From contig OX485808.1 of NCBI GenBank assembly GCA_950295325.1, forward strand, positions 11,904,501 through 11,968,500: a DNA stretch of 64,000 nt. Direction: 5' to 3'. The translations under genes were made by a program, and so were the position numbers. Position 1 is the first letter of the stretch; each line of letters starts with the position of its first letter. The DNA is from Polytrichum commune. Lineage: Eukaryota > Streptophyta > Polytrichopsida > Polytrichales > Polytrichaceae. Below the pieces are notes generated by a model. It searched no databases. It saw nothing but the letters and a program-made list of their open reading frames with translations, and was not told the DNA's origin. This document shows, in pieces, positions 40,771 to 54,800 of the stretch.

Positions 40771-43700
40771 TGGTAAGGCCAACATGTTCAAATTCATGCC
40801 ACATTACCCGATGTTGGTTATTTATTTATTTATTCATATTTAGTGTAACACATGTGACCTTGTAGGTATCCATTTTCACAAAAAAAATTGTCATGTATCA
40901 TTTATTCCTTTGGAGTTGTATGATCCCAAACACCATCTGCTCACATGCTAAGTACAATAAAATATGATTAGTTTGAATGCCCACGTGAGCAATGTTTTAA
41001 ATATAATTTATGATGTGGATCCACCTTCATTTCACGTGATTTCAAAAAAATAGATAAATAAGTAAATAAAAATGTGTGCCTTTCAATGGGATATGCAAGA
41101 TCAATAATTGCCTTTAAATGAGGGAAGCTAAGATATGAGCGATGAGTGGTGAACATGGTGCAATAACATGTGATCAATAAAGTCAAATATAGTACATTTC
41201 CATGATTATTGGGGTCATAATTTATTCATTCAACTGTGTAGTATTCACATTTTAAAATTTGAGAACATAAAGGGGCCTATTACCATGGACTACTGGGAAA
41301 AAAATCAATCAATTGTTGACTTTTATTGTAATAATCCAAAACATTGTTGTATGCAACCAAAGTAGATTAAAAATAATTAATATCATCAATTAACAGTTTG
41401 GAGTATTATGATGAACACTATACTAAAATTATAACTTGTTTTTAACAACACCGACAAACTCAAGGAGTTGCATGACCTCGTTGTAGGTATATGTTGAAGC
41501 GTGGATAAACTACTTGTTGTGATTCATCTTGAATAGGAATTTGAACTCATAAAGTATTGCGGCCTCGAAGCAATACTTTGAGGAGAAAAAAAATATTTAA
41601 GGAAGGTTAAGTAGCTTGGAGGATTTTCAAAAAAGAAACCCATAGACTATGAAATCCATACAAGAATCTAATATATACATGCAACCTACAAAATTTTCTA
41701 AGTCATCTTAAGGAAATAGCCTTTCCCTCTCCACTAGGGGCTAGGGTGAACCAACTACTGCACTCATACCCCCGGTTGGTGAAGGACTTACGGATGACTC
41801 TCAAAATTTCGGACCCCCCCCCCCGGCATAAAAAAACCTATCTTTATGGCATGGGCAACATAAGATCTATACGAGTTGACATCCAAAGTCCATATTATAT
41901 TAGCTACAAGCAATGCATGAATCAAGGGTTTGGGCTTTAGGTTTCTTGTTCCACCTTTGCAAGCTTACTTGCACCAACTTCGTGAGTACAATTGTGATTC
42001 TGGGTTGTCAATCTTTGGAAAATTCATGGTGCAAGGATATGAATGTCAAGCTATGAAGGCCACGTTGTGAAAAAAACGAGTTTGAGCTGTGAATGTGAAG
42101 CTATGAAGGCCAAGTTGTGCAATAAGTTGTGTAAGTTTCTACAAACTCAATATTTGTGCGATATGCGAGCGATAAAGCCAAGTCCTGTGTAATTTGGGTC
42201 AGATTTGACAAACATCATTAATTGTTAAAAACAAGAATAAAATTGCGGGAGAGGCAGAAAGACGAAAAAAAAACAACATCGAAAGAAAACACAAAGAAGC
42301 TTCCGTAGGGTCGAGGTTTTTCATAAGATTTTTCAACAATTTCTTAGAGCCTGTATGTAGTAACTTAATCTACTATTGCTTTGGCATACGGAATAGGTTA
42401 TTACTTACACAGTAGACTGTTGTGGAGATTTTAGAAGTAAATAAACAATTTTGAGGATTTTCGTAGTTGTTCACTTGAATTGAGATCAATCACTAACATA
42501 AAAAAAATCTTCATGTTTTGATTATGTAACTGAGAAAATCGGTTCAAACTCTTGCCAATAATCGAAATAAAGATATTTGACCTTTCCACTTCTGCTACGA
42601 TATGATGGTGGTATAGTATGAGTTGACAAAATATCTCTAGCTTCGATAATACTCTTTTGAAGTATATCTTCAACGGTATTATTCCCAACAAAACCATTGA
42701 ATTTTCTCTCCATCAAATACATGTAATGATTGGCTACCGGGTTCGATAGCTGTCACACCAACCAATCGACCCTCCGATCTCATAGTTTTCGCACATATGC
42801 ATTCAACCATTTTTTCAATGTTCCATGATAAGTCTCAATACTAGATTAAATATACATATTTGAATGTAATACTCTTCATGTATTTATTGTCCAAAGATCT
42901 ATAAAAAACCGTTTGAAAATAAATATTAGTATTCAAATATACATTAAAATATATGTTATAACTTCATTAAAAAATCAAAATTATATTTCAATCACGATCA
43001 TGAAATTCATACGATTGATAATTACATATAATAATTAAATAATACGTACAGAAATATTCGGCAAAATCTTGGAGCATAATACCTCCACGTTCCGAAGCTT
43101 GTTTAGCACAAATGATAATGCGATCGTAAAACGATTGTACTCCTTCTCCATGTTGTAATTAAACATACATAAATATCCGGCAAATATTAAAAATGACATT
43201 TCAAACGAAAATATCATTAATTTTTTATATTATAATTTTGTTCTAATTTTTTAAAATATGTCATGTACAAAAAAAATAATGATATTGTTATATTGCTAAA
43301 TAAATATACGTGACCAATATAAAATGTTAATGAATAATAAATTATAGTATAATAGTATAATCTTAAAATCTTAAAATAAAAATAAAAATAAAAATAAAAC
43401 TTATTTGATAGCATTGCGTTCATGAATCACATCATCCACAATAAAACAACTTGGTCAGCATTCGGGTATAATGTTGATGATTTTCAATCATTAAGCAATC
43501 AATCATTATATCAAATCATATTTTTTTGCCTCGATGTTATGATCTAAGCTATTCATACTCCATGATGAAAAAACATCAAACACAATTAATGTGAATAAAT
43601 GATATTTCATATGGTTGGTACCAAATGTACTGAATGATCTTTAAACGTCATTATATTATCCATCATACCCATTCTACTACAAACAAAACGTTTAGAGTCT

Positions 43701-43812
43701 AATACAAAGTTACGACAATTTGGAAAAAATAAAAGTATTAAATTTATTCATGATAACCTTCAATGATGAATCTGCTAGAAGATGTCATTCACTGTTTAAT
43801 GAAGATTTATCA
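40771..43812. other. AT-rich spacer, no supported gene
   Basis: The AT content rises strongly after 42400. A minus frame at 42522-42722 (MYLMERKFNGFVGNNTVEDI) has some coding character but no identified domain. A C11 tract is at 41814-41824. Confidence 0.4.
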
Positions 43813-43936
43813 ATTCTTGAGGTATATTGTCACTTTATGTATGATTTTAGCTGTCACTTAAAGATGACATACTTACACTTGGCCTATCACTCGATGTGGG
43901 TAAGTTTGCATTAGAACTTGATGTTGCTGGTGTAAT

Positions 43937-45034
43937 CACTAGTAGAAATTCTGCGTCCGGATCAACAAAAAATCAACAGAAAGGCGTTGGTCGCGGTTGT
44001 TACTTAGGACGCGTTGACCTGAACACGATATAACACAATTTTGTTGATTTTTTCTGTTGATCTAGTCACAAATTTTTTATTTTTTTGAAAAAAAAAACTT
44101 ATTTTTTATTGCCCAGATTTTTCGGGCAAGAAAAAAGCTTTTTGGATTGTCTAGATTTCTATGGCAGCCTAAGTCTATCACCACGGTTCGCAATCGGGTT
44201 TGAACTCGAGACCTCACGCTTAACACTTAACACTCTAGCCAACTCACCATGCTTAGAATTTGATGAACAAAGAAAAATGTTTTTCTTATATATACACTTA
44301 CAATAGGCCATGTTCACAATTGGCCTATTGCCCTAAAAAAGTTTCACGTCCCACCCTACTTTTAGAATCCCCCTCAATACATCCAAACCGCACATTTTTC
44401 TACACCCCTCCCAAACGCCTCAAAAATTCACCCAGATCGACGTCCATTCCTTTTTTTAAATCGCCCCCAAAAACAACCAAAAATAGCATCCACAATAGTC
44501 TTCTTTTAGTCCCTTCGCAAACACCTCACTTCCGTATATTATTGAACATCCATCCCTACTTTCTACAACCTCCTAAATACACCTACTCTAAACCTTTATC
44601 TAATCCCCTTCTAAACACGTGAAAATCCCAAACACATGGACCTCCTAAATTTCACCCACATGGACATCGATCCCCTTTTTTAATCTGCCTCAAAATATGC
44701 CAAAAATAGCATCCGTAGTCTTTTTTTAAGTGTTAAGTGTTAAGTGTTAAATGTTAAGTGAGGACTCGAGTTCAAATTTGATTGCGAACCGTGGTGATAG
44801 ACTTAGGCTGCCATAGAAATCCAGACAATCCAAAAAACATTTTTCTTGCTCGAAAAATCCGGGTGGTAAAAAATAAGTTTAAAATAAGTTATATATATAT
44901 ATATATATTTTTGTGAACAGATCAATAGAAAAAATCAACAAAAATGTGTTACATCGTGTCCATGTCAACGCGTCCTAAGTAACAACCGCGACCAACGCCA
45001 TTCTGTTGATCCGGACGCAGAATTTCTACTAGTT
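43937..45034. mobile_element. CACTA (En/Spm)-like non-autonomous element A
   Basis: The left end is CACTAGTAGAAATTCTGCG; the right end is the reverse complement, except that the terminal G is T (CTAGTT at 45029-45034). Inverted similarity continues inward for about 300 bp and includes repeated GATCAACA/TGTTGATC motifs like the subterminal repeats bound by CACTA transposition proteins. No transposase is encoded; the 120-codon frame in the loop (44260-44622) is low-complexity Pro/Ser. The flanking triplets are AAT and ATT, which are inverted rather than direct, so there is no ordinary target duplication. Confidence 0.7.
44196..44241 (-). other. tRNA-like A/B box module inside CACTA-like element A
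   Basis: On the minus strand, TGGCTAGAGTG is a 10/11 match to the Pol III A box, and GAGTTCAAACCC matches a B box 34 bp later. The mirrored copy in the right arm (about 44735-44800) has a damaged B box. Confidence 0.45.
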
Positions 45035-46006
45035 ATTACACCAGCAGCATCAAGTTCTAATGCAAACTTACCCACATCGAGTGATAGACCAAGTATAAGC
45101 ATGTCATCTTTAAGTGACGGCTCAAATCATACACATAGTGACAATATACCTCAAGAATCGACTCAAAAGGATAATGCATGTTCCGAGACCAACTCAGTAC
45201 CTATTCAAACCCTAGAAATTCTAGTAGCACCATCATAGGGAGTAACACCATTACAGAGAGAACTCGTTGATCTACTTCAACTTAACTTCAATTGCCCATC
45301 ATCAGCTTTAGCGTCTCCGTCCAACATGAGTGAATCCGATGAACGAGTACATGAAGACAACAACTCAAATGAAGAAGACCTAGGGTTTAGACTCAAACCT
45401 CGGAGCAACGCTGGATCGGCTGTATCCATTGCTAAGAAGTCAGAAATAATCCATGAACCCAAAACATACAAGGAAGCGATGAATTCACCACATGCCCAAT
45501 AATGGAAACATGCAATGGCAAAAGAGTTTGCATCTTTGCTAGAAAATAAAACATGAATCCTGAAGCCTTTACCTGAAGGAAGAAAAACAGTAAAGGACAA
45601 GTGGATTTATAAGGTCAAATACAAACCATCCGGAGAAGTAGAATGATTTAAAGCACGACTTGTAGCAAAAAGATTTTCACAAGTAACAGGGGTAGATTTC
45701 ACTGAGACTTATACACCTGTTATCAAGTATGATGTTGTTCGAGCCGTATTTGTGATAAGCAACGAACATGGCATGTTCAAAGCACAGTTCAATATCTGCA
45801 CCGCATATCTAAATGTTGACCTTCGGGATATTATCTTCATGGAACAACCTGGAAAAATTTGAAGACTTTCAGTGGTCTTTCTACATGTGCTAACTACTCA
45901 AAAGTCTATACGGTCTTAAACAGAGTGCAAGATGTTGGAACAAAACTTTTGACAAATTTGCACAATAGTTCGATCTACTGCCCAGTATTGCCGATCCATG
46001 TGTATA
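45035..46006 (+). pseudogene. Ty1/copia pol fragment: linker and N-terminal reverse transcriptase
   Basis: The frame begins in the variable linker between integrase and reverse transcriptase (ITPAASSSNANLPTSSD) and passes EPKTYKEAMNSPHAQ. It then enters the conserved copia RT block: LPEGRKTVKDKWIYKVKYK, FKARLVAKRFSQVTGVDF, TETYTPV and DLRDIIFMEQP. RT copies the element RNA into DNA. In-frame stops occur after APS, HAQ, ENKT, SGEVE and PGKI. The first catalytic Asp region reads QFNICTAYLN, with Asn where LDVKTAFL is usual. Gag, protease and most of the integrase are absent. The 3' continuation lies beyond the CACTA-like insertion at 47053. Confidence 0.85.
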
Positions 46007-47049
46007 CACTACTAGAAAATCATGATCAGATCAACAAAATATCAACAGATCTTTGTTGATCCGGGCACTACAATGACCGATTTCACTGATTTTTGAATTT
46101 TTGTAAAAATCAACAGTTTGTTGTCTACATTTTTGTTGATCTGAATAGTACAATGACCAAATCAACAAAATTTTAGTAAATGTGGAATATTTTTGTAATA
46201 TTTTTGTAATATTCTAGAATATTTTTAATCTTTTGTAATTTATGGACTTGTAAGTATATGGGTGTGGAAATAATTACGAATTCAAAGGTGTGTAAATATT
46301 ATAAATATTATAATAGTTGATAGTTTATATTATTTATTTATTAATATATGTATATGTATATGAATTAATATAAATTAATATAAATATAAATATGTATATA
46401 AATATGTAACATATAATATATTTATATGTATATGTATTTATGTATTTATGTATTTATGTATGTATATGTATAATATGTATATATTAATATATGTATATAT
46501 TAATATTAATATAATTATAGTAAATATATACAGTATTTATTTATTATATATATATAGTATATATTTACTGTAAATATATATATCAAATAGGTAGTAAAGA
46601 GAAAATAATGGCCTTAGTCTAGAAAGGTTCAAAACACTCCATTTATATCATGTGTGATGTGATGACCTAGTGGATAAGGCACATGTGTGGGTGTCACTAG
46701 GTGCAAGGTTCGAACTTCGTGGCCGACACCTTTGGCCTTGGCCTTGCCACCTAGGTGAGTAGTAGGTAGTTTATTCTTGTAGGTGAGGTATAGGTTGAGG
46801 GTTATTTGGGAGGGGTTAGAAGTTGCAGACCTGCCAACCATTCATGTTTGATTTTTTAATGATATATGTATATATATAAATAAAATAAAATAAAAGTTTT
46901 TTTAAAAAATCTTTTTGTAACTAGATCAACAAAAAAAATCAACAAAATTGTGTTATATCATATCCAGGTCAACGCGTCCTAAGTAACAACCGCGACCAAC
47001 GCCTTTCTGTTGATTTTTTGTTGATCCGGACGCAGAATTTCTACTAGTG
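46007..47049. mobile_element. CACTA (En/Spm)-like non-autonomous element B, inserted in copia RT
   Basis: The element begins CACTACTAGAAAATCATGA and ends GCAGAATTTCTACTAGTG, and is 1043 bp long. ATA flanks it directly at 46004-46006 and 47050-47052, the 3-bp duplication expected of CACTA elements. Deleting the element and one ATA rejoins the copia frame exactly at DPCVYYSKD. About 127 bp of its right end matches the ends of element A, so the two belong to one family. Both ends carry ATCAACA motifs in both orientations. The interior is extremely AT-rich (46180-46570) and encodes no transposase. Confidence 0.88.
46650..46885 (+). mobile_element. tRNA-derived SINE-like insertion inside CACTA-like element B
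   Basis: A box TAGTGGATAAG (46668-46678) matches TRGYNNANNNG exactly. B box GGTTCGAACTT (46707-46717) matches except for its last two bases. The spacing of 39 bp is tRNA-like. A body of about 110 bp follows and the unit ends in a TAAAATAAAAT-type tail near 46880. Confidence 0.55.
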
Positions 47050-47052
47050 ATA

Positions 47053-47205
47053 TTACAGTAAGGATGTCACACATCCTGACAAAGTGGAAACGATCCTTGG
47101 GATATTTGTTGATGATGGTATTGTTTGTTCCACAAATGCAAAGAAGCTTGAGAATATTTTACAATATCTGGACAAAATTTTCAAGATTATAAGAGGCGAC
47201 ATGTT
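47053..47205 (+). pseudogene. Ty1/copia pol fragment, continuation of reverse transcriptase
   Basis: The frame resumes with YYSKDVTHPDKVETILGIF, then the catalytic box FVDDG (YVDD in active copia RT) and STNAKKLENILQYLDKIF. It then breaks off; RNase H and the 3' LTR are not found. Together with 45035-46006 it forms one interrupted RT. Confidence 0.82.
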
Positions 47206-47279
47206 ACATTACAAGATTACAAGACATGCGGATGTTTTGAACCGTTCTTGAGACATTCATATTCATTTGTTTAAGATTT

Positions 47280-50200
47280 ATGGGCGCCTCGTACAAGCAA
47301 CGAAAAAAACGTCTAAGAACGCGAAGGATATTGGCAGTACTGCCAATATCCCCCGATACGAAAAAATTCATGGCACTTGATCAGTATAAAAAATTTGTGA
47401 CTAAAACTATCGCAACGTGGTATTCATTTATCAAAGATTATGTCTTGGATTATTTGTATTATGTAAGTTTTTTCCATATTTTAATTTTTTTTATTCATAA
47501 AATTCTTACATGCTAAAATTTATATCATATCATTGTGGTTGTTAAATGATTCTTGTTATTTTTCAGCATGAGATTGCCGAGGCCGAAGATCTCAAACAAA
47601 CAAACAAACAAAAAAACAAAAAAACCATCTCACATCAAAGCTACAGTGGTCCTCTGAAGGTGTATCCGAGATTATGAATGCAACAATGAACGCTAAACGT
47701 GTCAAGTTGGATTTTAGTCTTGCAAACCATTTGCCTATTGCATATCCTTCTTTAGGTCTTGAATTCTTAGCTCAAGTTAAAAAAACATCATGACTTGTAT
47801 TGTAATGAGCCGTAAATGAATCAAGATTAACTTCAATGTCTCGTGACATCCAAAGTGGATTCTCAACAACAAAAAAATGAAGTGGTTGGAGCTCTAGAAT
47901 TTCAATCTTGCTTTTCAAATGGCTTTGAAATTCTTAAAAATGCCTCTCTTCGGTAAGGCTTTTGATACACAAAGCCACATTTTAGAGTCATGTATGTATA
48001 TGATTTTGATTTTTTTTTTTTAAATTTATAGTTGTGCTTATTTTTTTTCATTTCTAATCTTGTCTTTGTTTTTCAACAATTGGCTTGAATAAACTTCTAC
48101 GCTTTACGATTCCACAATTTTCAAGTTGAACATTGTTATCAATATGGACCTAAATGAAAGTGATTTTTTGCCAACTTTTGCTGATTATATTGAGTCTTGG
48201 AGGGTGATGTGTTGGAAAATGATTTTTTTTCACATGTTCAAATCAACTGATGGCATTATGAAAAACATGACCTTTGAAAAATAACCTATTGATTTTCAAG
48301 CCATGAGACAGGTTGTTACATGTACTCCCATATATATATATATATATATATATATTTATTTATTTATTTTCAACTTTTTATTTTGATTTTGTTTTCACAA
48401 ATATTCTAAGCGCGTCTTGCTTCTTCCTAATGTTTTGAACAAGCTACCACCTTTCTCTGATAGTTTGAAGGATGTTCAGTCAGAGAGTTCCATGTTCACT
48501 CCTGAAATATGTAGACAATGAAATAAGGTTCATTGGTATGAATGTAGATGGTATCTAGACCGTCCGCCTAATAAAGCTTCACATTTTGAATTATAATTGC
48601 GTGACTGTCTTAAACTTACGTTTGTTCCCTCCATCTTGGACCTCGATCCACCATATACAAAACCCACAAGAGGAAAGAGGGAAAAAAATACTCAAGTCTC
48701 GACACACTTTGACGAAAATGACATTCTGAGTGGTGAACCTTCTGCCAAGAAGTGCAAGGTGCTTCAACCTGCTACTTCATTTTATACTCCATTTTGTGTT
48801 GGAGCGTTCTCCTCTATCGTAATCAAGACTAAAGTTCCTAAACTTACGCCATGTAATTCTAATCATAACTCATTCGAGCTCATTTTGAATGACTCATTTT
48901 AAAAAAAATTTAATGTTGAAGAGCAAACCAAGACTTAGCCTCAATCTTTTCACGACATCAATACATTTCTCACAAAGGTGTTTTTTTTGTCCATTTTTTC
49001 AAGTCATATATTAATCTTTTTTCTTCTTTTAGTTATTCAACAGTCCTTTCACCTAATATAGCTTGTATTTTTGTTGCTTAGGTTGGTACAAATCGCAAAG
49101 TCTACTTTCAAAGAGTTTAAAAAGCAACACTGGCTGTTGATTTGGTTATAATGAATATCCCAGTGGGGTTTCCTATGCTTGGACTTTCAATACCTTCTTT
49201 TTCTATACCCCCTTGGAATGCAAAATCCGATAAATTTCTTCTTGTTTTATTTTTATTTTGCATGCAATATTTTCATGACAATGGTGTTTTATTGGTATTT
49301 TATCCTGATCATGCGAAATGGACAAAAAAATTGTCTTCTTATTTCTTCAATTACAACTCAAGATTGGCCATGAACCTTGGACTTGTGTGAATCCACTTCG
49401 TTTGGCCAATCCTCATAATTCCAACAAAATAGTATGTCTCCCAATTTTTTTCCACGTTTTCTTCATTTTTATAAGTACTTTTGATTTGTTACATTATATT
49501 ATCATTGGTTTCTCATTTTATTTTACTTTCATTGCTTTTGCAAACAATCAAACTCACGACACTCTTTCTTGTTCGTTATTTTCATAATACTTCCGGATTG
49601 AAATATCTGCTTTTGTCTTTTCAAATGAATATTGATAAAGATTTTTCAGACAATGATATGAATTTTGATGACGATGTGTTATACAACTTCACAAATGCCT
49701 CTCAACTTATGAGAGATGATGGTGTTACACCTTGGAGGGGTTCACGAGAAAAACATCCATTGTTCTTTCAAGTTTTGATCGATGCTTTTACAAAACCCAA
49801 AGGCATTGTTGCGGACTTCATTGCATCAACATGTGTAAATTCATTTATTTTTTCTTTAATGTTATTTTTTTCATATACTCGCAATATCAATTATTATGTG
49901 TCATTGATTGTTCTCTGAAGTCATAATTGTATTTTATTATGTCTTTCATAAGACCCTCCATATATGCTTGCCACACTTTGAAGCGTCACCTCTTGGCATT
50001 GGAAGGCGACAAAGATGTTTTTGATTTCATCTTGAAGCCTTTGATTATGCAATCCCTTTTACCTATCGACAAAGACATCAATTATGAAGACTCGGATGAT
50101 TCTTCAATTGTTGATCGCAAGGCCGTCAATATATTTTGTGAGTATGTTTGTTTGTTTTCTTTCTTAAATGCTTTATATGGTTGGTTTTTCTTTTTTTGCA

Positions 50201-50405
50201 ACATATTGCATATCTATTTCCCTAAAATCATATGAAGTAAATAATAATTATTAATATATTTATGTGGTGATCTTCTAGCAATGTGGTACCACAATGTCGT
50301 CGACGTTGGCGACCATTTTTTGCAGATGCAAGATTTTTATCAAGTCCATCTCCCCCTCAAGGCCTCCCTATCTATGTTGAGAGTATGCTCAACCTTCCCC
50401 TTTAG
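47280..50405 (+). pseudogene. Decayed multi-exon gene with C-terminal class-beta DNA methyltransferase-like domain
   Basis: About eight exons can be traced. E1 47280-47462 (MGASYKQRKKRLRTRRILAV), donor GTAAGT. E2 47567-47952 (NATMNAKRVKLDFSLANHLP; KNEVVGALEFQSCFSNGF), donor GTAAGG. E3 about 48080-48312 (MDLNESDFLPTFADYIESWR). E4 about 48395-48980 (basic, KCK). E5 about 49083-49431 (VIMNIPVGFPMLGL; YFHDNGVLLVFYPDHAKW; VNPLRLANP). E6 about 49610-49832 (WRGSREKHPLFFQVLID; GIVADFIAST). E7 about 49953-50137 (YACHTLKRHLLALEGDKDVF), donor GTGAGT. E8 about 50285-50405 (CRRRWRPFFADARFL), stop TAG. IPVG stands where D/N/S-PPY is expected, followed by a motif X-like EKHP and a motif I-like DFIAST, giving the class-beta order. 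These enzymes methylate adenine or cytosine amino groups. About nine stops and at least three frameshifts, one in a (CAAA)n run, disable it. Confidence 0.6.
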
Positions 50406-50999
50406 TGCCTAGATACACTAAATATATTATGATCGGCGGGTTTTGGATTTCATAGATTTAGAGGCCAATTCATGTTCATGATCCATCACAACAAGTTCTA
50501 ATGATAGTTAGTTCTTTGATGGCACTTGTTTAAGTACCTTAACTGAGGCTTTTATTATTTTATCATTTTTTAATATACTTTCATTTATATCTTGGAGTTA
50601 CACATGTTTTCTATCCACTTTTATCTTCCTTGCATTTTCTATGTTTGTATTATATTATTGACTTATTGCAATATTAAGTATATCTTGTAATATGTCATAT
50701 TTCATTTTTTAAGTTGGTCTTACTATGAATGTTAATGATAATTATTATTATCATGTCATAAGGGATGCACTACAATTATTAAAATTTCTATATGATACAT
50801 ATATATGGTGATTATCGTTTTCACTTCTCAATGTTCATTTCTCACTACTCATAATCTAGAATTTTGTTGTTTATTCTCCCCACCCTTCTTATTTTTTAAC
50901 CCTACAACTGTGCCAAAATACCATGGTTATACGATACCAGTGGGCTTATTACCAAATATTTTCCTTCCTCACCGCTCATGTGTTACTGTTCACCGCTCA

Positions 51000-51170
51000 T
51001 CACTCACCACTCACAAGATAGCACTCCCATATTGCAAGCATCTTTATTATGTGTTTAGATTTTTGTGCAAGGTGGATTATAATAGTGACAAGTTCATTCA
51101 CGCTCTAACGTACTCCTATAATGAGGTCATGCGGCTACTTGAACTTGCAGGTATGGTAGACTGTGAGTAA
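51000..51170 (+). other. Coding-like 3' exon fragment, unassigned
   Basis: The frame reads KIALPYCKHLYYVFRFLCKV and YSYNEVMRLLELAGMVDCE, then TAA. It looks conserved in character but matches no domain I know. It lies about 600 bp after the methyltransferase-like pseudogene and could be another relic of the same unit. Confidence 0.25.
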
Positions 51171-51459
51171 TATTGCAAGGGTTGTATTCAACCGCGTGTT
51201 TGACAATTTCAATGACATGTATTAGTGTGGATTGTTATAATAAAAAACAACAATGAATTGATAGTTTTTGAGTTATCCATGGTTATAGGCTCCTTTTATT
51301 TATTTTTCTTTGCAAAATGCACATATGTTTTAAATGTTTTAAATGTTTGATGTTATCACCTTGGCACCAAAACACTAAATTCACATCTTTCAAAATTTTA
51401 GAGAATAAAATCCACATTAAATTCAACCTTTCTTTTAGAAATCTTAGGTCCAAAACCTT

Positions 51460-51899: not shown

Positions 51900-54800
51900 A
51901 TATTCTCATTTTTTAGTAAGTATCAAATGCTCAAGGTTGTTTTATTGGGACTTTCAATTGATTCTTTGGACACCTCTTGAATGAATTATAAATATTGAAA
52001 AATAATGAAATTTCTCCAAGCTATTCAACAATATTCCTCACAATCACAATGAGGTATACTGCCCCTAACCACTCTCATACCTAACCCTAACTCAACAACA
52101 TATCCAAATCATCTTGGTGGTCCCACACCGAACTCCAAAAAAAACCCACCTATTACAACCACAACCTACATAAGTCTCCACCAAGATTAGCAACACTAGC
52201 CCAAACACAACAAGAAAATCCCACATCTAAAAAAAAAACAATCATAACAACTACATAAACAAAAAACAAAAAAAATAAATTGATACAAACAAAACCAACC
52301 CCACAACCTTCCACACTAGCCTCCTCACACTTTACTTAAAAAAAAACACCTCACACCTTGCTAAGATGCCATCCTCAATCACACACCTCATAACACAACA
52401 AGACATACTCCAAAATTAACAAAAAACCAAACAAAAAATAACAAATCAACGTGAATACAACACACACACAACCTTAATCCCGACAATGCACCAAAACCGC
52501 CAAGCTGCTGATATGAATTGCCACTCTTTCCACCCACATACCATGTCGCAACCCTCGCTAGCTCCCCTTAACTAACTTGGTCCATTTTTTCAATTCTAGC
52601 AAGGGTCACGTGCGCTAACCCTTCGCATTCCGCCATGCTAATAGTTAGCTCCCCATACCGCAGACCTCTTGGTTCATAGGAGGGGGACCAACCCTCCTAC
52701 ACTTGCATTCGAGACTCACCGCTTAATCGGTAACCAATTATAAGATGTGGACTTCCATCCATAGAAGTCCAATCTTTAGTTGGTCATCGTGTTGTCGGAA
52801 CAACACTTTAACAACCCTATCACGGTATGCAGTGTCGGTGGCCGCACCTTATCTGTGGGATTTCATTCATTTAGATTTGGATGAATGAATCTTAGAAGTT
52901 GGAGAGATGCTCCTAAGTGAGGAGCTTCTTCTTGGCTTGGCATTCTTACCAAGTCAAGCCTTGTGAGTGAGTGTGTGGAGAGAGCTTGTGTAAGGTGTAA
53001 ATTGCATGTTTTTGCAATAAATCTTGAGTTCTTATTCCCTTACTTACACTCTTCAGGCTGCTCATCTATTTGTCAACTTCCTAAAAAATTGAACATTGGT
53101 GAATGTTAAAATATACTAGAAGGTGAAGACAACAAATTAGGACCATACAACATTTTCGAAATGAACGATTGTTTAATCCTAAAAAAATGGAATTCTTGCA
53201 TCTTTTATCCATTGCAAATTATGTAACCACTCCCCTTGTGATTCTATACGTGATTTTTCATCTACAATGTATCCCTCCATTTTTGCAAAAAAAAAACTAA
53301 GACTACTACACAATGCCACAATATGTTGACAAGAAAAATGAGAGCATATTGTATACAACAACCTTATATACAAACAAGTAACATGTACTGTTTTATTGTT
53401 TATTGTAATAAGCATTTTTAATTATTTTAATGTGTTTTTATTGTTTTTTAACATTCTAATGGTTTCTTTTTATTTAACGTTCTACTATTTTCATTTAACT
53501 TCTTTTATTTCCAAAAATTATCTTATTTTTTATTATTTTAAAATAACGTAACATTTTCCTATGTTTTGGGATTTAGACATTGTACTGGTTTTTTGAATTA
53601 CACCGTTATATTGGTTTTTTTGAATTCTAACGTTTTTATGTACTGAAGGGCAACTGCCATATCATGCACAACCCCCAGAAAAAACTTCATTAAAATTTTA
53701 TTAAAACAATATTTCTCTGCCATAGGCCCTTGCCTTTTCCTACTAGACCACCTCTCTTGTCTCTCTCAATGCAAAACCCGTTGGACCATGTCAGTGCATT
53801 TATTAGACTTAAAAAATATATTTTGGGGACCTCGACCTCCATGGTCCCTCTGCCAATTTTTCTCTAGTGTAAACCGAAGTTGTGCCGAGACGAGTTCAGC
53901 AACCAATCAACACTCTTACCTCGCCCTGGGACAACTTCATGGTCCATAGTGTAAACCGGCCCTTAGTCAATGGTGTTTGGGTCAATGTTTCCTTGAGTGT
54001 CTCAATGAAGGACGGGGTCAAATTGTAGTGTCCGCCAAGTGTGAAGAAAGCCAAAACCAACCTCAAGTAACATCAAACTTGGGAAAATGTTGCCCATGCG
54101 CAAGCCATTGCAAGCATGGAGATGGTCAAGGCCACAAGGCTCATGGCTCAGATCTTCCAAAACACAATTACTCATAATTTTTTTGGGATTAATTTGCATG
54201 TATTGGTGGACCCTATAGCCAAGGATTACTACAACATGCGCCGAGGGGAAGAGCTTCAAAAGTTGAAAGAAGGTTTTGGTGAGGATGAAAACAACATCCA
54301 CAGGTTCAACCAAGAGTTGAACATCACTCCAACTAACTTGGCTACACATTTAAAATTGGTGTTTGACATGAATGGGTTTTACAGCCAATGAACACAATTT
54401 TGGCATATTCGTTTAGGATGCAAGAGGTTTTTGAGACTAAGGATTCATTTTTTTGGTTGTGGCGAAGTTGCAAACCACCCCTGGATTGTGCTCAAAAAAG
54501 TTTACACCTCCAATTTGGATGCCATCATTTATTATTTTGATTTTGCGCATTAGCTTGTGTGCTTCAATTTATGTCGCATTGGCTTGTTTGATTGCTTCAG
54601 TTTCTTCCTTGCATGACTTGTAGGTTTTGGTCTCGATGTTGTCTCTAATATGGGCTCTATGGTGTGCAAGTTGCTCAACCCCTAAACCAACCACTCAAAT
54701 CACAAACTAACATGACCAAATTGCAAACAAGGAGGCCCAAATTATATACTAGGAGGCCCGAATGACATGCTAGGAGGACCAAATTACATACTAGGAGCCT

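Follow-up and report, generated by a model that had tools for sequence, protein, structure and literature searches.

A decayed two-gene DNA transposon in the moss Polytrichum commune and its family of accessory proteins with a methyltransferase-like domain of altered motif IV

Results

A dispersed family of two-gene transposons

We analyzed a 64,000-nucleotide stretch of the genome of the moss Polytrichum commune (GenBank assembly GCA_950295325.1, contig OX485808.1, positions 11,904,501 to 11,968,500 of the forward strand; referred to here, at its full length, as the window). Within it, 41120 to 51029 is an old, decayed copy of a DNA transposon with two genes. The family to which this copy belongs very probably encodes a transposase and, transcribed away from it, a DGNHR/methyltransferase-like accessory protein, the altered-motif domain of which may act at palindromic arrays. 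The accessory protein would consist of an N-terminal DGNHR domain (N-domain), a middle region, and a C-terminal class-beta methyltransferase-like domain, which keeps the motif X and motif I region but has a changed motif IV in every subfamily seen.

When the stretch of the original prediction (47280 to 50405) was used as a DNA query against its own genome (408 Mb; 64 contigs), at least 56 matching pieces, including itself, were obtained from the best 40 of 160 candidates scored. The genome also contains one MIR166 match slightly above the gathering score (61 bits, with a threshold of 60), as would suit a land plant. Relatives were present on all seven large contigs (C1 to C7) and, without the self match, showed 67 to 92% identity. 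Because the matches ran through introns and exons, the unit is a DNA repeat scattered over the genome and neither a single gene nor a processed copy; a unique host gene was ruled out by this dispersal. The original prediction, made from the letters of the window, had suggested that a methyltransferase-like gene was perhaps spread by transposons, and the shared element ends, the gene pair, and the copies on C1 to C7 bear this out.

A sharp 3' end, ...CTCACAAGATAGCACTCCC(C), was common to nine aligned copies (identified here by locus, e.g., L027), with different flanks beyond it; in the window it falls at 51029. The 5' end, GAGGGAAGCTAACACATGAGC..., was common to L027, L028, and L029, was seen again in L036 and L037, and lies at 41120 in the window with two mismatches. 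As inverted repeats, the two ends match imperfectly (13 of 21 positions); the transposase is presumed to act at them, leaving a 10-bp target duplication. Such duplications (GTAGATTATA, ACATGAGTAT, and ATTAAGAAAA) were found in three of the six elements with both ends paired. The cleanest element (C2:13645061-13659757; 14,697 bp) has inverted ends matching at 20 of 26 positions and contains an open 1,234-codon transposase frame (L045) and an accessory gene (L043). A 5' end was looked for in a further C7 element and was not found; likewise, we recognized no inverted ends in the L042/L046 element, no 5' end in L039, and no 3' end in L031. L020 is truncated at its 5' end.

In complete relatives, the transposase-like gene is upstream of the methyltransferase-like gene on the opposite strand. 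Divergent transposase relatives (31 to 62% identity, depending on the stretch) were found in L041, L042 plus L046, and L043 plus L045, and the genome search listed a divergent transposase match 7.4 kb upstream of L044, the first 3,001 bases of which are N. For a linkage test, the best 150 of 1,747 transposase first-look candidates and the best 150 of 1,199 N-domain first-look candidates were scored, giving 150 matches each. The nearest N-domain match within 20 kb was divergent for 46 of the 150 transposase matches and in a different orientation for 4, compared with an average of 2.2, and at most 8, by random placement (1,000 trials). For 100 transposase matches, there was no N-domain match within 20 kb among the matches listed; these may have partners outside the lists, because only part of each family was scored. 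Methyltransferases of this type had originally been described as rare in eukaryotes, a word that does not fit this genome, given that every one of the 150 scored N-domain candidates (of 1,199 rough candidates) was a match.

Three side observations concern the makeup of the subfamilies. A short, basic-then-acidic open frame lies between the transposase and accessory genes in two subfamilies (L020:2430-2830 and L041:2036-2461) and may encode a small third protein or belong to a first exon. A single-exon methyltransferase-like subfamily (e.g., G000 C6:23007757, C6:3346043, and C2:6458195) includes many copies that score identically and have one internal TAA, which suggests a recent burst of one stop-bearing copy. 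Finally, the 3' terminal region of L041 (8300 to 8620) is by eye almost identical to its counterpart in the L020 group, although the methyltransferase-like exons of the two are about 43% identical; this likeness hints at an exchange of parts between subfamilies.

Kinship of the methyltransferase-like domain

The C-terminal half of the accessory protein is, judging from its sequence, a class-beta amino-methyltransferase-like domain with the motif order IV, X, I; the order given in the original prediction was reproduced in alignments to PF01555 and CcrM and in the alignment of copies. Over the genome, the Pfam profile PF01555 gave five matches, all over the cut-off (26.7 bits), of which two were on large contigs (C4 and C1) and three were in bacterial-looking open frames on the small contigs C10 and C12. 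The C4 match (L004; 32.2 bits) belongs to the accessory family (29% identity to L041; E 4e-24); the C1 match scored 30.6 bits, family membership having been shown for the L004 translation alone. Other copies scored below the cut-off, i.e., L041 over its whole length (20.9 bits) and, both over the X and I part, L020 (19.8) and L044 (19.7). Residues 19 to 236 of L041 aligned with profile positions 1 to 218, with the motifs running IV, X, I and the last of them close to the C terminus. There was no PF01555 match for L042 and L043, both of which end at motif I, or for the window copy read through with X, so the profile similarity originally expected of the window gene holds for its relative L004 and not for the window copy alone.

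A profile of six copies, including that of the window, matched DpnA (E 2.8e-5), CcrM (E 0.015), and RsrI (E 0.12) in PDB. The CcrM alignment was nearly full length (profile 18 to 236 to CcrM 32 to 251), and an unrelated chain (msDPBB_sym2; E 0.011) ranked above CcrM in the same search. DNA methyltransferase families of PHROGs were matched by L041 (E 4e-4) and L044 (E 0.017), and NCBIfam gave weak rows only, CcrM (E 0.17) among them. Pattern scans of viral contigs for relatives of both domains returned 36 and 33 pattern matches, none of which was confirmed.

Alteration of motif IV

Motif IV was followed through the genome with the pattern D-L-x-I-A-[DE]-x-P-x-G, in which positions 2 and 4 of the motif are left free. 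The pattern occurred exactly at 124 places, and the reversed control occurred at none. In the 100 sites listed, the motif read EYPDG (52), DLPEG (22), DYPDG (12), DIPEG (4), DFPEG (3), and DLPKG (3), with single occurrences of DLPQG, DYPNG, DLPNG, and DMPEG. EYPDG had at least seven synonymous DNA spellings among these sites. The family motif IV is [D/E]-x-P-[D/E]-G, and position 4, where an aromatic residue is expected, was acidic in 94 of the 100. The canonical (D/N/S)PP(Y/F/W) was not seen, as 122 of the 124 sites had no aromatic residue at position 4 (by a codon pattern that also admits Cys, Leu TTG, and TAG) and PP was present in 0 of the 100 listed. Copies outside the pattern read AVIPEG (L020), MNIPVG (window), VDIPDG (L004), AAYPDG (L052), and ADIPEN (L043). 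Since motif IV is altered in all subfamilies examined, the IPVG of the window is decay on top of that change. The original proposal that IPVG signals altered catalysis or a distinct family is thus supported to the extent that the motif is altered genome-wide, with the qualification that IPVG itself is partly decay.

These data bear on whether the accessory protein instead marks the DNA of its own element as an active N6-adenine or N4-cytosine methyltransferase, as proposed for a Sola-1 protein of Ectocarpus in the accessible part of PMC12477816. Such activity is unlikely in our estimation: the kinship to PF01555, the class-beta order, the retention in most copies read of an acid at motif IV position 1 and of a proline at position 3, and two sites reading DYPYG agree with it, but the nearly general loss of the aromatic residue and the missing PP do not, and in the bdelloid N4CMT a change of SPPY to APPA abolished activity (accessible part of PMC8885841). 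We consider it somewhat more likely than not that base methylation of the usual kind is not carried out by the methyltransferase-like domain.

The suggested kinship with DN4MT, known from Marchantia, did not hold. The catalytic motif of DN4MT is SPPY, which was seen in none of the 27 copies read (23 plus L004, L043, L020, and the window; the genome pattern itself fixed D or E at position 1). The accessory protein furthermore has extra domains and lies inside a transposon, and DN4MT identity was rejected on motif and context. Marchantia DN4MT is described, in the accessible part of PMC8885841, without additional N- or C-terminal domains.

Purifying selection

The ratio of nonsynonymous to synonymous substitution rates (dN/dS) was calculated for pairs of exons and binned by dS. 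For the methyltransferase exons (23 copies; 79 of 253 pairs binned, 156 with saturated dS, 9 with dS 0, and 9 with dS above 3), the median was 0.81 at dS of ≤0.05 (24 pairs), 0.23 at 0.05 to 0.15 (6 pairs), 0.11 at 0.15 to 0.4 (15 pairs), 0.07 at 0.4 to 1 (25 pairs), and 0.33 at 1 to 3 (9 pairs; unreliable through saturation). In the same bins, the N-domain exons (18 copies; 39 of 153 pairs binned, 112 saturated, and 2 above 3) had medians of 0.51 (8 pairs), 0.30 (21), 0.27 (5), 0.15 (3), and 0.19 (2). The altered-motif exons are under purifying selection, with dN/dS of about 0.1 where measurable. These values rest mostly on within-subfamily pairs, since most other pairs are saturated, and taking the copies from the top protein matches biases dN downward. 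The pattern fits lineages that are kept by selection, with individual copies decaying later.

Alternatively, a transposon may have captured a plant methyltransferase gene of the host, DN4MT-like or other, and multiplied it in pieces as a functionless passenger, in the manner of a Pack-MULE. Gene capture is common in plant MULEs (accessible part of PMC6431247), and the many decayed copies and the median for near-identical pairs would suit this explanation; we nevertheless regard it as highly improbable in view of the low medians at the older splits (dS of 0.15 to 1) in both sets of exons, the recurrence of the gene pair and its orientation across subfamilies, and the lack of PP in the listed sites.

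Subfamily-specific palindromic arrays

Tandem repeats are located beside the accessory gene, and their units carry a palindrome of 22 to 26 bp that differs in each of three subfamilies: GGTATTGGCGG-CA-CCGCCAATACC in 64-bp units (L020), GGGTGGCCGTTAACGGCCACCC in 105-bp units (L041), and GGGGTGCCGTTGCCGGCACCCC in units of about 245 bp (L042). Palindromes with arms of at least 9 numbered 6, 3, and 5 in the L020, L041, and L042 stretches, respectively (6, 3, and 4 of the array type), compared with shuffled means of 0.00, 0.15, and 0.00 (20 mononucleotide shuffles). There was no palindrome with arms of at least 9 in the L043/L045 intergenic stretch, nor any palindrome in the 274 bases examined in L044.

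The N-domain would bind these arrays, a reading that we hold tentatively, at slightly short of an even chance. That the arrays are instead bound by the transposase is a somewhat doubtful explanation: transposases often bind repeats near element ends, and arrays and transposases both differ between subfamilies, but the arrays of L020 and L041 are several kilobases from the 3' end, which has short TCACCGC repeats of its own.

N-terminal domain and transposase

In the relatives, the N-domain is conserved over about 150 residues and contains FxVWDGNHRxxAW. It appears ParB-like by motif and architecture only, a resemblance that we take from inspection by eye. In hhalign, DGNHRxxAW falls on the DGHLRxxA site of ParB, but with a probability of 0.15 of 100. 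Over the genome, the ParB profile PF02195 matched only on contigs C10, C12, and C23 (4 of 4 candidates). A scan of prokaryote contigs for relatives, made for the N-domain alone, yielded 3 pattern matches, of which none was confirmed.

Target duplications of MULEs are typically 9 to 11 bp, a range that includes the 10-bp duplications found here. A SWIM zinc finger near the C terminus is frequent, not universal, in MULE transposases; in this family the SWIM profile PF04434 matched weakly (18.4 bits in L046, with a cut-off of 19.6; E 0.038 in L027; no match in L045). The Pfam MULE profile PF10551 had at least 142 matches in the genome (best 150 of 271 candidates scored), none of them on L027, L028, L029, L041, L045, or L046. 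Comparison of the transposase with PDB profiles gave rows at E 0.13 and above only. Neither the Pfam profile nor an alignment to MULEs from this genome supports placement in the MULE superfamily.

The element in the window

In the window (Table 1), the accessory gene persists within 47361 to 50466 as eight decayed blocks (part of exon 2 to exon 9). These were placed by tblastn with exon translations of the related genomic copy L020; their order is colinear, and the best E value per exon ranged from 1e-9 to 3e-50. More distant subfamilies independently matched the region from exon 3 to exon 8 (26 to 41% identity). Stops are present in exons 3, 4, 5, and 6, and frame changes are present within exons 3, 6, and 9. 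In L020, AG/GT stands at, or at most 2 bases from, most of the exon edges set; the splice sites seen in the window are the exon 2 donor, the exon 3 acceptor, the exon 6 acceptor and donor, the exon 7 donor, and the exon 9 acceptor.

The original prediction of a decayed gene of eight blocks and roughly 750 residues is therefore confirmed in substance, the length being about right; the count of blocks stands, whereas the first block is not an exon before about 47360. The sequence at 47321 to 47354, previously read as exon, scored 43 against the L020 array and 14 against exon 2 (maximum of 200 shuffles, 27). Absent from the window copy are the beginning of exon 2 and all of exon 1, which encodes the DGNHR domain; the array unit directly precedes the second part of exon 2, and exon 1 has thus been lost.

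Table 1. Features of the transposon copy and its surroundings in the window
Feature	Position	Strand	Evidence
Transposon 5' end, GAGGGAAGCTAAGATATGAGC	41120..41140	+	Pattern match; 2 mismatches to the 5' end common to L027, L028, and L029
Transposase gene remnant, C-terminal end	41441..41581	-	tblastn E 3e-7; blastn 41445-41511
Transposase gene remnant, middle	43630..43808	-	blastn 77-79% over 179 bp; tblastn E 2e-8
Copia-type reverse transcriptase remnant of a retroelement inside the transposon	45647..45862	+	Pfam RVT_2 E 7.6e-16
Palindromic tandem array, sole remaining unit, GGATATTGGCAGTACTGCCAATATCC	47321..47354	.	Alignment to L020 array; self-inverted match 47326-47351
Accessory exon 2, 3' part	47361..47459	+	tblastn; DNA match to relatives begins at 47362-47363
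Accessory exon 3, with frame changes and stops	47608..47918	+	tblastn
Accessory exon 4, internal stop	48099..48317	+	tblastn
Accessory exon 5, internal stops	48402..48899	+	tblastn E 3e-50
Accessory exon 6, methyltransferase-like, altered motif IV NIPVG; stop and frame change	49082..49431	+	tblastn, alignment
Accessory exon 7, motif X region WRGSREK and motif I start DFIAST	49547..49831	+	tblastn, alignment
Accessory exon 8, motif I region continued (LEGD)	49954..50142	+	tblastn
Accessory exon 9, two matches separated by a frame change	50280..50466	+	tblastn
Transposon 3' end, ACTCACAAGATAGCACTCCCA	51009..51029	+	End common to nine aligned copies; flanks diverge beyond
Transposase C-terminal fragment of another copy, flanking	51030..51255	+	blastn 86-87% over 230 bp

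The blastn match in the C-terminal transposase remnant is offset from the 5' end exactly as in L029, and the copia remnant sits between the transposase remnants and the accessory gene. The flanking fragment lies just outside the 3' end, in inverted orientation relative to the element. A weak further match to accessory exon 9 (53755 to 53916; 31% identity; E 1e-5) is perhaps a second, older relic of the accessory gene; at E 1e-3, no query from another subfamily matched this position.

Discussion

Accessory proteins with ParB-like and DNA methyltransferase parts are known in algal transposons, i.e., Sola1-1_Ec32 of Ectocarpus and elements of green and red algae, according to the accessible part of PMC12477816, which was the one report directly on this kind of protein that we found in the literature on transposon-encoded or plant amino-methyltransferases of this type. 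Compared by description only, the moss accessory protein is of the same kind. As in Sola1-1_Ec32, it belongs to a large DNA transposon, is encoded on the strand opposite to the transposase, has about 1,000 residues, and combines an N-terminal ParB-like part (by motif only in the moss) with a C-terminal N4/N6 methyltransferase-like domain. By the same description, the moss family differs in its land-plant host, its 10-bp target duplication, and its weak transposase SWIM match. It also has an altered motif IV under selection (the accessible part of PMC12477816 is silent on algal motif IV), an N-domain missed by the ParB profile, and subfamily-specific palindromic arrays.

Bacterial-looking open frames were observed on the small contigs C10 (L087), C12 (L089), and C23 (L088), which probably represent bacterial contamination or associated microbes. 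Two of these frames, on C10 and C12, are ParB and N6_N4_Mtase fusions with DPPY and have the same domain order as the moss protein. They differ in having DPPY, a PF01555 match over the cut-off, and one open frame. Only their X and I region aligned with the family profile (hhalign probability, 89 of 100; E 2e-6), and there was no significant alignment between their N-domains and those of the moss family. The ParB_N match of the C12 fusion was over the cut-off in both tests, and that of the C10 fusion was over in one and below in the other.

Among eukaryotic amino-methyltransferases, DN4MT and N4CMT are of bacterial origin, the bdelloid N4CMT being of the N6_N4_MTase type with SPPY, and the accessible part of PMC8885841 describes neither as transposon-encoded. 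The VANC anti-silencing proteins of Arabidopsis VANDAL elements, likened here by partial descriptions, are also sequence-specific accessory proteins of a plant DNA transposon. To our knowledge, VANC proteins are not methyltransferase-like. TET/JBP genes reportedly occur in fungal DNA transposons, according to one study (PMC12730594).

Several observations weigh against our interpretation of the family. The 10-bp target duplication was absent from three of the six paired elements, including that of the window, where both ends are paired. An aromatic residue does occur at motif IV position 4 in 2 of the 124 sites (L041 and C7:41240709), both reading DYPYG with identical letters. Most exon pairs between subfamilies were too diverged for dN/dS. 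In the C2 element (L043), the perfect palindromes, GAGGCCTCGGATCCGAGGCCTC in 138-bp repeats, are on the downstream side of the accessory gene and not in the stretch that separates it from the transposase gene. PF02195 gave no row for any of 13 N-domains, and every profile test of ParB identity failed. For the 1,215-aa transposase, there was no match to PF10551, and hhalign comparison with three MULEs of the same genome gave probabilities of 0.4 and 0.6 of 100.

On the two-gene interpretation that we prefer, the methyltransferase-like domain would act at the arrays as an S-adenosylmethionine (SAM)-binding regulatory module, with no ordinary base methylation or with a changed chemistry, and would keep the element expressible or steer its transposition. 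Candidate purposes are anti-silencing, regulation of both genes, and help in transposition; we lean toward element-specific regulation at the arrays. A more specific and rather unlikely version is that a bacterial-type ParB-methyltransferase was turned into a probably non-methylating SAM-domain regulator that recognizes the array of its own subfamily in a parS-like or VANC-like manner, co-diversifying with it, under selection and with a fixed [D/E]xP[D/E]G.

As far as we have seen, the moss family is set apart from the algal reports by its land-plant host, its 10-bp duplication, a motif IV that is altered and under selection, and palindromes that vary with the subfamily. The family addresses the open question of how transposons evade or use host DNA modification, and its conserved catalytic-motif change asks whether transposons made a methyltransferase into a reader. 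For annotators, it is a warning that, in such genomes, a gene model resembling a methyltransferase may belong to a transposon. With well over 1,000 candidate copies from several subfamilies within one genome, and with presumed target-site arrays that differ between the subfamilies, specificity and co-evolution are directly testable.

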